DNA of 43,994 bases from Bacteroidaceae bacterium (lineage in GTDB: Bacteria; Bacteroidota; Bacteroidia; Bacteroidales; Bacteroidaceae). The position numbers and the translations under genes were made by a program. Below, piece after piece: positions 24,421 through 28,514 of this stretch. The stretch covers positions 1 to 43,994 of the forward strand of contig JAFRTL010000027.1 in assembly GCA_017427065.1 (NCBI GenBank). Reading direction: 5' to 3'. Every line of letters starts with the position of its first letter. The first letter of the stretch is position 1. The notes beneath the pieces were generated by a model. The model did not search any database and was not told where the DNA came from. It saw only the letters and a program-made list of their open reading frames with translations.

Positions 24421-24462
24421 ATATCGGATCATTTTGCTGGCGTCAGCAAAACGATCCGATAT
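24421..24462. repeat. 19-bp near-perfect inverted repeat (long hairpin)
   Basis: Arms 24421-24439 and 24444-24462 pair with one mismatch around a 4-nt loop (GCGT). No T-run follows on either strand, so it is not a normal terminator. It stands between the DUF1080 operon terminator and the ORF6N promoter. I see no flanking target-site duplication. Confidence 0.85.
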
Positions 24463-24504
24463 ACAGCTGGTCAAAACCAAAATTGTAAAAACAATATGGA
24501 ATAG

Positions 24505-24535
24505 TTTGTATTAATTATTATTTGAACTATTTTTG
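24505..24535 (+). promoter_or_regulatory. Promoter of the interrupted ORF6N gene
   Basis: TTTG at 24505-24508, a 19-bp spacer, then TATTTTTG at 24528-24535, 36 bp before the ATG at 24571. The promoter is intact although the reading frame is not. Confidence 0.75.
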
Positions 24536-24570
24536 TCGCCAAATTGCAAACCATTAAAATAAAAACGGCA

Positions 24571-25143
24571 ATGAATGATATTGAATTAATCCAGAACAAA
24601 ATCTAAGAGATTCGAGGCCAGCGCGTCATGCTGGACTTTGATTTAGCAGAAATGTATGCAGTTGAAACACGTGTGCTTAACCAAGCAGTCAAACGTAATA
24701 TTGAACGCTTTCCACCAGACTTTATGTTTCAACTGACTAAAGCTGAATGGACTGTTATCTCATCACAATTTGTGATGACATCAAGATTGAAACGTCCTAA
24801 ATCCTCACCGCCATTAGCTTTTACTGAACATGGTGCCTTAATGCTTTCAAGTGTTTTACGAAGTGATATAGCCATCGAAACAAGCATCAATATCACAAGA
24901 GCTTTTGTTCGTATCAGAGAAAGCCTTTCTCTATTGTCGATTCCTATGAAACTATCTGAGCTCGAACACCGAATTACTGAATTAAGCAAAGAGGTAAATG
25001 ACATCCTTCGTGATCAAAACGACATCAACGAGGAAACCCGTATGCGGCTGGATGCCATCACCATCGCCCTAGCAGAGCTGCAAGCCAAGCCCAAGGAAGA
25101 GAAGCCCCGCCGTCGCATTGGTTTTATCCAAGATGACAAATAG
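24571..25143 (+). pseudogene. ORF6N domain protein, interrupted by an in-frame stop at codon 12
   Basis: Phage-type DNA-binding ORF6N/KilA-N-related protein. The natural start is the ATG at 24571 (MNDIELIQNKI), but codon 12 (24604-24606) is TAA. The same frame continues without a break as EIRGQRVMLDFDLAEMYAVET, which is the conserved start of the ORF6N domain in which the interrupted position is usually Tyr. The rest (to 25143) is intact: NQAVKRNIERFPPDFMFQL, FTEHGALMLSSVL, a coiled-coil-like helix and a basic tail ending GFIQDDK. Re-initiation at the ATG at 24628 would give 171 residues lacking the first strand of the domain. It may be a recent nonsense mutation, a sequencing error or a shortened working protein. 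Confidence 0.85.
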
Positions 25144-25145
25144 CA

Positions 25146-25187
25146 TAAAAATCCCGTTACACGATTTTTCAATCTTGCAGCGGGAAT
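25146..25187 (-). terminator. Imperfect hairpin with minus-strand T-run, candidate terminator
   Basis: Arms 25151-25166 and 25171-25187 pair (13-14 pairs, 2-3 mismatches) around the loop GAAA, followed on the minus strand by TTTTTATG. It lies just behind the small-protein relic read on that strand and just behind the ORF6N stop on the plus strand. Confidence 0.5.
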
Positions 25188-25194
25188 TCCTTTC

Positions 25195-25287
25195 TCACAG
25201 CATACTCATGCAGGATGATACACCTATGGAGGTTCCAATGGCAGTGAGACTACCTTATATTTTACCAAAAGTAAATGGACTTTTCAG
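25195..25287 (-). pseudogene. Relic of a 'smalltalk'-type small membrane protein gene
   Basis: On the minus strand the codons from 25248 down to 25195 read LTAIGTSIGVSSCMSML and stop. This closely follows the C-terminus of the roughly 32-residue Bacteroidales 'smalltalk' proteins (LTAIxTTLGVTSCM). Upstream codons read KSPFTFGKI, also like their N-terminus, but a TAA stop (25255-25257) interrupts the frame and a CTG stands where the ATG should be. In other Bacteroidales these genes sit in a cassette with an HU-like protein, an N-acetylmuramoyl-alanine amidase and a VirE/primase-like gene, none of which is here. I infer a decayed gene; the match is from memory of the family. Confidence 0.5.
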
Positions 25288-25433
25288 AAACACAAGGAGT
25301 TGTCGCGGAAATATCAAGCATTACCATAGGTATTATTGAAGCATTTTTGTTATAACACTGGACATTTTCGTGATAATTGCCTGCATTATTTGGATCATAC
25401 CTGATGTATGGCCTATTGATACGTTATCTCTCT

Positions 25434-25523
25434 GCTCAGTCAACGGTAGGACTTAGCTCAGTCATCGTTGGGATTTAGCTCAGTCAAGGTTAGGACTTAA
25501 CTCAGTCATCAGTGTGACTGAGC
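25434..25523. repeat. 22-bp tandem repeat with closing hairpin
   Basis: Three consecutive 22-bp units (25434-25455, 25456-25477, 25478-25499) of the form GCTCAGTCA-n7-GGAnTTA are followed by a fourth partial unit (ACTCAGTCAT). TGACTGAGC (25515-25523) is the reverse complement of the unit start and can pair with any of the three unit heads (9 bp). With the partial unit it forms an 8-bp stem, 6-nt loop hairpin. Confidence 0.9.
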
Positions 25524-25581
25524 ATGAAGGTATTAATACTAATTATTGAAAGATCCCTATTCTCCATACGAAATATGCCAA

Positions 25582-25797
25582 AAACACCTCACACCTCACC
25601 TTTTTCGAATTAACTAATAATCTACATACATTCTCAAGGGTGAGGTGTTGAAATGACACCTCACCACTCCTCACCCTTATTACTATGGAAAGCCCTTCAT
25701 GAAGGTGAGGTGTGGTGAGGAGTGTTCACAACACCTCACCGCTACATTGCATTGATATTCAACATTTTAAATGCCAAAGGTGAGGTGTGAGGTGTTT
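25582..25797. repeat. Inverted-repeat family 1: six GGTGAGGTGT sites with constant 38-bp spacers
   Basis: The decamer GGTGAGGTGT occurs three times on the plus strand (25639, 25704, 25779) and three times on the minus strand (as ACACCTCACC at 25591, 25656, 25731). Each minus site is followed by a plus site exactly 48 bp later, leaving three 38-bp spacers (25601-25638, 25666-25703, 25741-25778) of unrelated sequence. The outermost copies are extended to perfect 22-bp inverted repeats (25582-25603 and 25776-25797). Adjacent sites also form hairpins of 10 bp with loops of 7 and 17 nt. Confidence 0.92.
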
Positions 25798-25820
25798 CCT
25801 TGAAAATTCATTTTTAAAAA

Positions 25821-26114
25821 TAGACTTCACTCTTCACGCTGATTATAAAAGTACATGTTCTGCATGATATTTCTAGAGCAAATCCAAAACAGAGACTTCA
25901 CAAGACTTCACACAGACTTCACACGTGAAAAGGTGAAATCTACATATCAGTCATATATCTATTTTCGAATTATAATAATTTATGATTATCAGCTAATTCC
26001 ATCAATTAAAGCGTGAAGTCTATGTGAAGTCTTGTGAAGTCTCATTAGCAGAAAAACTTTCTTAACAAGTTATTATTCAGACGTTTTAGAAATGTATGTG
26101 AAGTGTGAAGACTA
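25821..26114. repeat. Inverted-repeat family 2: AGACTTCAC sites, mirror-symmetric with 55-bp spacers
   Basis: Inner arms 25893-25922 and 26013-26042 are 30-bp inverted repeats (29 of 30 match), each made of three AGACTTCAC-type units. Outer arms 25821-25837 and 26098-26114 match at 15 of 17 positions. The distance from outer to inner arm is exactly 55 bp on both sides, although the two 55-bp spacers are unrelated in sequence. All arms share one centre, at 25967/25968. Confidence 0.92.
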
Positions 26115-26132
26115 AAACAGAGAGATGGAGAT

Positions 26133-26192: not shown

Positions 26193-28142
26193 TTAGGAAA
26201 AACCATTAAACATACCTTTATCAACTAAGTATTGAAGGGTATAAACGCACAACGTTCCATCTTTCTCGACATGGAAGGTAGAGGCAAGCTCATTGAAATT
26301 GTTGATTTCTTTTTCAGTGACAGGTTCATCATTAATCATATATTTCTTCACTACTACTTCTGTTTTCTTGCCTGTAAGTAAGTCTGTGAAAACACATTTT
26401 TGCACTTGCTTAATATCATCAACGACATTTCCTTCCGCATCATAGTAAGTAGGAGCATTTATTTTAATTTCTTTCAATTGTGCTTGCGTTTTCTTCAGTT
26501 GTTCCATAGCAGAAAGTAAATCTTCATTTATCAATTCAGGGATTCTGCGCTTTTGCATCTCCTCCAAATAATCACGCAAGGAATCTGACATCACGTAAGG
26601 CTTTATGCTATCTTGAGTATTTTCCTCACTCTTTTTGGTAGTAATAATTATCACGCCATGCTTTGCCTCATCGCCATATAGGGGTATCGCATCTTTGTCT
26701 CTCAGCACTTTAAAAGAAGAAATAGTCTGAGGATCTAATTCGTTAAAATCTTTATTAGTCAGACGAACACCATCAATAAATACCAAGATAGAATCAAGAG
26801 AGGCAGCCATACCATTAACATTCGTTATTCTAATAGCAGGGCCCTTCTTCATTTCCTCCTTAGTGGCAGGGGTACCTAATACTACAGGTTCTTTCGTAGA
26901 CTTGGTTTCAATTTCCATTACCCCCTTCTTTCCTTCTTCACCATACTTGCTGACAGCTTCTTGATCCTTCAATACTCTGATCATCTTTATTTCTGAAGGG
27001 TTAAGAGCATTAATCTGTGCATACTTCACCCGTTCGCCATCCAAAATATAAATGACAGAGTCTTGAACCTCACTTAAACGCATGACATGCATCTCCTGAG
27101 AACTATAAACAACGCTATCAGCTTCTTGGATTCCCCTTCTTGATCTAAGATCATCCATTGAGATAGTCTCAGAAGAGCCTCCTCTAAAAATGGTAATAGA
27201 ATCTTCGGTAATTTTTTGCATATCTGCTGGCGAATCCGTAACTTTGTCACTTGGAGAAGCAAGTTTCTCCACATAATCTACTTGTGTCCGTGCGTTTAAC
27301 GCCAGACACGCCCCTACGAGGGGCAAGAGGTAGAGCGCTCTGAGCACCCTGCCACGATTTGATTTTTTACGACACATCATAGTGATTCTTGATTTTAGTT
27401 CCCTATGATTAAAGCTGTTGGCAACCGAGTAGCCGCTCATGCCAACGGCTTTTTTCACAAGGAGATATTGATATTGTTTTACGTTATAGCCTTCGTCAAG
27501 TACCTGTGCATCAGCCTCATACTCATGCACGGCACAAAGGTCGGCACGAAGCATCCAGATGGCAGGATTGAACCATTGGAGCAATGAAACTAAATCCACC
27601 AGCAACAAATCCCAAGAATGGCAAAGACGGATATGGGCCTGCTCATGACTGATGATGGCAGCATGGTCGTCTTCATAGTCTTTTCTCGACAGCACGATGG
27701 TATGCATCCAACTAAAAGGGGACACATCCTTTTCTGTAATGACCAACCAAGTGCCATCTTCCAACTGCCTACGTTCTCCACCAGAGATAATCCGCAGCAC
27801 CGTATATACAGAAATCAGAATCTGTATCAGCACGGCCAATGCTCCTAATATAAATAAGGTGGAAAGCAGAATCTGCCACCAAGGAGTGGTGACCACTGTC
27901 TGCTCTATCATTGGCAGCACGCCCTCTGGAACTTGCAGATTCAGAGGCGAAGCCTCCACCTCCACCGTCCGATGGATGGTAATGTGGAATAGTGGCAAAA
28001 GCAATGAACCAACAGCCGTGCAGAGCAACATCACTCTGTTCAGACGATGAAAGGTCTCCTTACTCAGCAGTAACCTATAGAACATATAAAATACTGCCAG
28101 GATGACTGCTGCCTTCACATCATAGATGATAAAATCCATCAT
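26193..28142 (-). CDS. M56/BlaR1-type membrane metallopeptidase with plug-like C-terminal repeats
   Basis: A 649-residue inner-membrane sensor peptidase that probably cleaves or inactivates the BlaI-type repressor encoded just upstream. Four membrane segments (about 10-25, 37-55, 90-118 and 278-294) surround a cytosolic loop with the zinc motif H166-E-Q-A-H170 and downstream ADLCAVHEYEADAQVL (third ligand region). The C-terminal half is periplasmic and contains no penicillin-binding domain. Instead it has two repeats like TonB-receptor plug motifs, VIYILDGERVKYAQI...GVMEIETK (about 370-423) and ILVFIDGVRLTNKDF...GVIIITTKK (about 455-510). The signal sensed is unknown. It starts 3 bp after the blaI stop. 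Confidence 0.9.
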   Translation of the reverse strand: MMDFIIYDVKAAVILAVFYMFYRLLLSKETFHRLNRVMLLCTAVGSLLLPLFHITIHRTVEVEASPLNLQVPEGVLPMIEQTVVTTPWWQILLSTLFILGALAVLIQILISVYTVLRIISGGERRQLEDGTWLVITEKDVSPFSWMHTIVLSRKDYEDDHAAIISHEQAHIRLCHSWDLLLVDLVSLLQWFNPAIWMLRADLCAVHEYEADAQVLDEGYNVKQYQYLLVKKAVGMSGYSVANSFNHRELKSRITMMCRKKSNRGRVLRALYLLPLVGACLALNARTQVDYVEKLASPSDKVTDSPADMQKITEDSITIFRGGSSETISMDDLRSRRGIQEADSVVYSSQEMHVMRLSEVQDSVIYILDGERVKYAQINALNPSEIKMIRVLKDQEAVSKYGEEGKKGVMEIETKSTKEPVVLGTPATKEEMKKGPAIRITNVNGMAASLDSILVFIDGVRLTNKDFNELDPQTISSFKVLRDKDAIPLYGDEAKHGVIIITTKKSEENTQDSIKPYVMSDSLRDYLEEMQKRRIPELINEDLLSAMEQLKKTQAQLKEIKINAPTYYDAEGNVVDDIKQVQKCVFTDLLTGKKTEVVVKKYMINDEPVTEKEINNFNELASTFHVEKDGTLCVYTLQYLVDKGMFNGFS

Positions 28143-28145
28143 GGC

Positions 28146-28514
28146 TTAGCCCTCCTTTCCAGCCTCTATCTGTGCAATCAGGTCTTTCAGTTCCTCCACA
28201 GTAATCTTTTCTTCTTTTACCAACGCAGAGACAGCCTTCAGATAAGAATTCTCGAAATAGTCGCTGATAAGACTAGTCAGACTGCGCTTCATGTATTCCT
28301 CACGCGTAAGCAATGGATAATACTGATGGGCAGTGCCAAAAGCCTTGTGCGCCATAAAGCCTTTTTGTTCTAATATACGCACCATAGTAGAGAGAGTGGT
28401 CAGCGCAGGTTTGGGATCTTCATAACAGTCCAGTAATTCACGCACGAACATAGGGCCTTTATCCCAAAACAACTCCATGATTTCCTGTTCTTTTTTAGTG
28501 AGTTTCCGTTGCAT
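28146..28514 (-). CDS. BlaI/MecI/CopY family transcriptional repressor
   Basis: A 122-residue winged-helix repressor: LTKKEQEIMELFWDKGPMFVRELLD is the first helix pair, and PALTTLSTMVRILEQKGFMAHKAFGTAHQYYPL is the recognition helix and wing. A C-terminal dimerisation helix pair follows. In the family the repressor is cleaved after signalling by an M56 peptidase, and such a peptidase is the next gene (3-bp gap). The promoter overlaps a perfect palindrome, presumably its own operator, so autoregulation is likely. The genes controlled elsewhere are unknown; no beta-lactamase is in the window. Confidence 0.94.
   Translation of the reverse strand: MQRKLTKKEQEIMELFWDKGPMFVRELLDCYEDPKPALTTLSTMVRILEQKGFMAHKAFGTAHQYYPLLTREEYMKRSLTSLISDYFENSYLKAVSALVKEEKITVEELKDLIAQIEAGKEG

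Follow-up and report, generated by a model that had tools for sequence, protein, structure and literature searches.

CRISPR arrays consist of direct repeats separated by spacers of fixed length and variable sequence, and REP, BIME and REPIN sequences are intergenic palindromic units in mosaic order. Closer to the locus described here are repeats that lie beside the gene of the protein that reads them. The Rep protein of SaPI recognizes iterons beside its own gene through its C-terminal domain, and Cch2 of SCCmec, an element with a putative origin, likewise recognizes through a C-terminal domain the repeats beside its gene, according to the part of the source consulted (PMC7581432). Prevotella intermedia has several VapE genes per strain, and the consulted part of the paper that describes them makes no mention of inverted repeats or iterons (PMC4349605). 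Here we analyze a repeat array in the window, by which we mean the whole 43,994-nucleotide stretch of Bacteroidaceae bacterium DNA under study. From its sequence and that of its relatives, we put at roughly 0.63 the probability that the window contains a gene-less copy of a bipartite, iteron-like putative binding array belonging to a short VapE-like/DUF3874 helicase family.

Architecture of the array and of the composite around it

The initial annotation had described three equivalent inverted-repeat units built from six copies of the decamer GGTGAGGTGT in alternating orientation, and six exact copies are present (25591−, 25639+, 25656−, 25704+, 25731− and 25779+), compared with a mean of 0.10 and a maximum of two in shuffles of the window. 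Its measurements were correct: partner starts lie 48 bp apart in every minus/plus decamer pair, which gives three 38-bp spacers, the outer arms at 25582–25603 and 25776–25797 form a perfect 22-bp inverted repeat, and the palindromic segments of 27 and 37 bp exist. The three-unit parse did not survive. Four sites had been overlooked, namely heptamers with one mismatch at 25668 and 25715 and tandem copies on the outside at 25586 and 25787, and with them the array parses as two mirrored half-arrays of five sites each, in which the outer two 38-bp spacers alone are constant (Table 1). What had been taken for a middle 38-bp spacer is the distance between the halves, which varies between 5 bp and 1.4 kb at other loci; the parse into three units is wrong. 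Each half-array follows a template with heptamers at offsets 0<, 7<, 54>, 72< and 82<, plus the mirror image, and the window fits it without a shift at all of the sites given in Table 1, the mirrored half being read inward from 25787.

Table 1. Positions of the composite element, its modules and the parts of the array in the window
Feature	Position	Strand	Description
Dispersed composite, modules H, C, D and E	25253..26117	+	Ends TTTACCAAAAGT ... CTAAAA; from an alignment of seven copies in the same genome
Module H (leader)	25253..25432	+	First ~128 bp also occur apart from the rest
Module C	25434..25521	+	22-bp tandem repeats (GCTCAGTCA...), four copies
Module D, reported array	25582..25797		10 heptamer sites, two mirrored half-arrays, motif GGTGAGGTGT
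Left half-array	25586..25674	+	Sites 25586<, 25593<, 25640>, 25658<, 25668< (1 mismatch)
Left constant spacer	25600..25639		40 nt between heptamers, 38 nt between decamers
Inter-half gap	25675..25704		30 bp; variable elsewhere; position of VapE in gene-bearing elements
Right half-array, exact mirror	25705..25793	−	Sites 25705>, 25715> (1 mismatch), 25733<, 25780>, 25787>
Right constant spacer	25740..25779		40 nt
Module E, second mirrored array	25825..26110		Sister motif GTGAAGTCT; no inverted partner at 54

The array forms a single module within a composite of ~865 bp that contains no ORF of 80 aa or more. Whole or partial copies of the composite lie on eight contigs of the genome from which the window comes (G000; contigs C3, C5, C10, C13, C15, C19, C20 and C25), and the first ~128 bp of module H were found on their own at G000:C7:72061-72188 and at G023:C47:36518-36647, G023 being a member of the same genus. 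The left end is common to all seven copies that were aligned and the right end to six of them, the remaining one being cut by the end of its contig. Their flanks are mostly unrelated, with ~100 bp on the left common to three, and identity among four of the copies in this genome is 86–90%. In module E, CTTCAC sites at 25825, 25832, 25896, 25906 and 25917 are mirrored by GTGAAG sites at 26013, 26024, 26034, 26098 and 26105, giving offsets of 0, 7, 71, 81 and 92 from each end; module E directly adjoins module D in the full copies aligned.

The spacers of the seven aligned copies can themselves be aligned, and within the composite family they are therefore inherited, not free. The initial annotation had called the spacers unrelated in sequence, which is true inside the array and untrue of copies elsewhere in that genome, whose spacers are homologous to those of the window. 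Homology among copies at other loci speaks against spacers that are unrelated everywhere, and the description of spacer sequence as free holds only between positions and between families, not within one family.

The composite sits between two convergent genes, their 3′ ends toward it, one with an ORF6N domain and the other BlaR1-like. Positions 24461–26117 of the window are ~92–95% alike to locus L041 across parts of the ORF6N gene, the ~100 bp downstream of it and the composite, as if the ORF6N region and the composite on contigs 25 and 15 had been duplicated together. At 26193–28514, the BlaR1-like gene (with matches to Peptidase_M56 and a TonB Plug domain) adjoins a Penicillinase_R repressor gene. 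Tandem repeats of 22 bp were seen beside arrays in different genomes (window 25434–25521; L139 and L128; L385 and L386), and by eye they comprise a CTCAGTCA type, a CTGAC..GTCAG type and a GTCAGCCATAG type. At L228, a lone right half-array (2055–2143) follows an ORF that by eye resembles the end of an AAA/DUF4143-type protein. A search of the window against Rfam at gathering score returned 5S rRNA and tRNA alone; hairpin matches at the array scored far below the gathering scores and are most likely inverted-repeat artefacts.

Geometry and dispersal across genomes

A collection of 84,980 species genomes was scanned for decamer pairs with gaps of 23–53 bp allowed, which returned 135 pairs in 102 stretches. 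The gap was 38–40 bp in 98 of the 135 pairs (69 at 39, 26 at 38 and 3 at 40), an outcome in favor of the spaced-motif search that the initial annotation had proposed; a few MAGs supply most of these pairs. Among the 80 of the 102 stretches listed with titles, gaps of 38–40 bp belong to Bacteroidales MAGs, many of them ruminant, with SRR873600_bin.104 the source of most, and taxa outside the Bacteroidales show other gap lengths. The virus collection contained one stretch with a decamer pair, at a gap of 30. Across 61 genomes from the genus and the order, a set that includes the window's own, the pair was present in two (G000, 14 matches; G023, 22 matches). A sister nonamer pair, ACACTTCAC/GTGAAGTGT, occurs in 6 of 119 genomes of the genus. 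Its gap is exactly 40, the same distance that separates the nonamers of module D, in 15 of 16 matches in G000, 12 of 17 in G023, 3 of 4 in G095 and 11 of the 17 matches listed (of 21) in G144; many of the matches with other gaps span the two halves, and G081 and G099 have repeats at other gaps.

The full half-array template was sought in 59 loci with seven heptamers, with up to 5 mismatches tolerated across 35 letters and three of the steps free to shift by one base. This search found half-arrays in 58 of the 59 loci, L305 giving none, and none in 482,424 reversed bases; the total of 112 half-arrays includes one place counted twice (two half-arrays) and two that overlap in L075. The 47-bp step was kept without a shift in 109 of them, and the later steps vary by one base between families. 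Because the template search was limited to one base of play, a search with free steps of 20–90 bp was added, in which the first inverted partner lay at exactly 47 bp in 106 of 114 outer tandem pairs from 58 loci; the reversed control gave 16 pairs, none at 47 and 14 at 27. Inter-half gaps in the template set were 5–111 bp without a gene and 1229–1404 bp with VapE. Prevotella arrays have an outer pair 8 bp apart and an inner period of 12, and a template of this type, with one base of play, found 91 distinct half-arrays and none in the control, with a 48-bp step in 84; their inter-half gaps fall into bins from 25 to 450 bp, with one of 1463 bp in L114, a contig equal in length to the contig of the VapE locus L305.

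Spacer length is kept far better than spacer sequence: the 86 spacers taken from 43 arrays have a median pairwise identity of 40%, with 28 clusters below 60% identity. The spacers are not wholly free, and a weak consensus remains, with a mean identity of 39% among 36 nonredundant oriented A-type spacers compared with 27% when shuffled, in consensus classes that overlap (the A and D patterns are one base apart, with one mismatch allowed). These data support the proposal that selection maintains the geometry and lets the spacer sequence vary, as would suit a putative multi-site protein-binding array.

Dispersal is plain. The likeness of the window array to arrays that flank a replication-type helicase gene in related genomes points to a dispersed genetic element for which no transposase has been recognized so far. 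Array positions can be old at some places, since G000 and G023 carry orthologous copies at C20/C28 and C10/C68. On the 3′ side of the blaR1-like gene, the composite is present in the window and a different A-type array in G023.

VapE-like genes beside and between the half-arrays

At two loci, an ORF lies between the two halves, encoding 385 aa at L226 (contig 6 of the window's own genome) and 392 aa at L237 (G144). Pfam identified in this type of ORF the VapE-like_dom (PF05272; 2.9e-30), DUF3874 (2.5e-16) and DUF5906, the PHROGs matches were phage DNA helicase and primase families, and the sole match among solved structures was 7pds, "Similar to D. nodosus vapE" (E 4.6e-06). NCBIfam gave no family for the ORF and PADLOC none for the two VapE proteins scanned. 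The ~385-aa VapE-like/DUF3874 product is predicted to be of the initiator-helicase type. No transposase domain was detected in six array-gene proteins scanned with Pfam, and no gene other than VapE was seen between the halves. Relatives in plasmid and phage collections were all below 60% identity, the best listed at 38%, and 23 loci in IMG/VR were at 22–35%; no member of the short VapE clade was seen in IMG/VR, plasmids or phages.

VapE genes were surveyed in two rounds, one a protein search of 11 genomes after which the flanks were read, the other in 158 genomes of the genus with bracketing of new short VapE genes predicted beforehand. Ten of the 16 earlier loci were bracketed, three had an array on one side (L299, L300 and L302, the last disrupted), L301 and L303 had an array on the sole available flank, and L306, a distant partial gene, had none. 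Among the 11 new short loci, three were bracketed (L342–L344, all by one heptamer) and six had an array on one side (clear at L345–L349, weaker at L351); L352 had none and L350 was cut. Overall, 13 of 27 loci were bracketed, nine had an array on one side, two on the sole available flank and two none, with one cut. An array adjoins the VapE gene in 24 of the 27, a count that leaves out at least six further short VapE genes. The strict prediction of bracketing failed, and the looser one, that an array lies next to the gene, held.

Thirteen short VapE genes are bracketed by this architecture, with several different motifs. The bracketing motif is GTGAAGTGT at L291 and L296, GTGAAGGT at L292, L293 and L295, GTGAAAG at L294, GTGAAGGGT at L297, GTGTAGGGT at L298, GGTAGGTGT at L304 and GTGAAGA at L342–L344. 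The window motif, GGTGAGGTGT, brackets a VapE-DUF3874 gene at L305 in G063, a Prevotella MAG, where hexamers lie at mirrored offsets of 0, 8, 56, 73, 85 and 97 from both ends. No initiator-type helicase gene was seen beside the window array itself. Three VapE matches were found in the window's own assembly, which is 83% complete, one of them long; the two short ones, whose flanks were read, carry other motifs, and no VapE gene with the window motif was found there. G061, G062 and G064 have GGTGAGGTGT arrays and gave no VapE match. By eye, TTTTCCCTG-type repeats lie upstream, outside the left half-array, at L292, L293, L294, L297 and L298, and a promoter-like TATATTTGC lies outside the left half-array in several of these, which would place the left array within the VapE 5′ leader at these five loci.

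Long VapE genes (~700 aa) had been predicted to be without arrays. They occur at 14 loci, seven of which were parsed, and the prediction went wrong in four of the seven, where 5–8 copies of another palindromic motif lie on the 5′ side. Palindromic arrays were seen just 5′ of the long VapE genes L357, L353, L355 and L358, the one at L357 being CACCCGGGTG-like with 23-bp spacing.

The pair TCTTCAC/GTGAAGA was sought in 157 genomes. G164, whose VapE is of the TCTTCAC type, contained 50 matches, with a gap of 40 or 47 in all 13 forward matches listed, and five arrays read there fit the template without a shift. G006 and G013, which have VapE with the same heptamer, contained four matches each, the number that the gene's own ends would give. 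Other genomes mostly had 0–3 matches, as in the control. A further 68 matches were found in G168, with a gap of 43 in three forward matches listed and no VapE at 1e-60; its arrays (L385–L387) are perhaps a related array family with another partner.

With motifs assigned from the flanks of the VapE genes, the C-terminus of the protein tends to follow the array motif, as judged from sequence comparisons. Among the 13 bracketed proteins, five same-motif pairs with ATPase identity of 82–92% have C-termini 94, 80, 78, 81 and 81% identical, compared with 43–60% at the DUF3874 end for the 11 different-motif pairs in the same range; the split has p = 0.001, which is descriptive since the protein pairs are not independent. 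L293 and L298 occupy one syntenic site and have different motifs, with 90% identity in the ATPase and 49% in the C-terminus, and L292 and L295, at different places, share a motif and 80% C-terminal identity. The VapE genes L291 and L296 are 82% identical with the same motif and different flanks. Across 136 pairs, with four one-sided loci added, motif difference correlated with C-terminal identity at rho −0.45 and with ATPase identity at rho −0.37. The pair L300/L345 is an exception, with 91% ATPase identity, 81% C-terminal identity and motifs that differ at 2 of 9 positions; this exception and the modest overall correlation lower our confidence in the VapE-array reading. A site in G000:C14 that is syntenic to that of the G144:C1 element lacks VapE, yet is rearranged, so that it is suggestive of an empty site for that element.

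Explanations and comparison with described systems

Inverted ends and dispersed gene-less copies, both features of a MITE, are present here. A conventional MITE, with ends moved in trans by an ordinary (DDE or other) transposase and VapE as a passenger, would account for the dispersed copies, the sharp ends, the long inverted repeats and the similarity of the four copies in the window's genome. We nevertheless consider it unlikely. No clear target-site duplication was detected in 44 arrays (at best 4 seen compared with 1.26 expected), and no autonomous relative combining a transposase with the same ends was found, the gene between matching halves being VapE-DUF3874, whose C-terminus tends to follow the motif. 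No neighboring protein family is widely recurrent within 3 kb of 88 array loci (~10 of them included twice), and the biggest cluster, of 8 loci, consists mostly of ORFs overlapping the repeats. Transposase ends, moreover, usually need fewer than ten sites at fixed offsets. The alternating palindromic units, intergenic and beside genes in several orientations, also recall a REP/BIME/REPIN mosaic, mobilized by a RAYT (Y1) transposase or made up of host NAP or gyrase sites. Among eight array genomes, however, Y1_Tnp (PF01797) was absent from the window's own, G063 and G064, and the six matches in the other five (one strong, in G065, and one below the cut-off) are none of them flanked by arrays, with a motif copy of any kind at one of the six; the array units also differ from REPs of 20–40 bp, and such a mosaic is very improbable.

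The orthologous arrays that keep their positions between G000 and G023, the array-bearing genomes without a VapE match and the many VapE genes accompanied by an array on a single side would suit sites for a host regulatory or chromosome-organizing protein unrelated to VapE, with VapE captured between the sites or regulated by them. That explanation is quite unlikely in our estimation, given motifs that differ within one genome and tend to change along with the VapE C-terminus, and a patchy occurrence among relatives. The arms of the array are perfectly complementary, and a structured RNA or cruciform would have the 10-bp arms as hairpins with loops of 38–40 nt, to which the weak Rfam hairpin matches might be added. 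The motif is kept in direct repeats, at 7 and 10 bp, that are not pairing partners, the spacers keep length rather than sequence, and the Rfam matches are far below the gathering scores, all of which leaves an RNA or cruciform with hardly any probability.

Of the possibilities raised by the initial annotation, iterons agree best with the data, since a gene of the initiator-helicase type is flanked by such arrays in related genomes. In the preferred reading, that of a gene-less copy of a VapE-associated array, the C-terminal DUF3874 domain would bind the repeats, and VapE-DUF3874 oligomers would load on both halves, perhaps one hexamer per half, and their arrangement would be set by the step of 47 bp together with the inner period of ~10 bp. 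As happens at an origin, the AAA+ part may then open DNA that lies between the halves or next to them; SaPI Rep and SCCmec Cch2 provide the analogy for both the oligomer assembly and the opening. Arrays without a gene would be nonautonomous or origin-only derivatives, and the window array a putative binding platform or origin without its gene. By the same analogy, it would work like the iteron origin of an initiator helicase; membership in that class is not claimed, since the gene is absent from the window and binding and replication are putative. A bolder proposal, which we regard as doubtful, is a class of bacterial mobile element whose sole gene, the replication-type helicase VapE-DUF3874, lies between mirrored 5-site arrays without transposase, recombinase or Rep nuclease. 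Such an element would spread itself and its gene-less copies by replication or strand displacement from its own ends, and would be re-targeted by joint exchange of C-terminus and motif.

If the VapE reading is right, noncoding repeats that are patchy and locally abundant in the Bacteroidales gain a candidate recognition protein, and natural protein/motif pairs become available for studying DNA recognition by VapE/DUF3874 helicases. A further question, and a testable one, would be whether an initiator helicase and its origin can be a mobile element without a transposase. Among titles and the opening lines of abstracts in the open-access literature, subscription papers being outside that scope, we found no VapE with such arrays.

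As the initial annotation had held, the array is not a CRISPR: its repeats alternate in orientation and its spacers recur at other loci. Unlike REP, BIME and REPIN sequences, the arrays have a longer, fixed multi-site geometry and no associated RAYT was found. The BrickBuilt MITE of Porphyromonas gingivalis is likewise a dispersed, intergenic, noncoding repeat of the Bacteroidales with a leader, and its tandem repeats have a period of 23 nt compared with 22 nt here; its 12-bp TIRs resemble those of ISPg elements, unlike here, and the consulted part of the paper's text contains no mention of VapE or a helicase (PMC4596501). SaPI Rep and SCCmec Cch2 resemble the arrays described here in that the gene of an initiator-type helicase adjoins short repeats, and the VapE proteins match phage helicase and primase families; in the part of PMC7581432 consulted, C-terminal recognition is known for the SaPI and SCC proteins. 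Compared with what that part describes, VapE was the only gene seen between the halves here, the repeats form two mirrored halves with a fixed 47-bp step between inverted partners, the arrays may flank the gene on both sides, and gene-less copies are dispersed in the chromosome.
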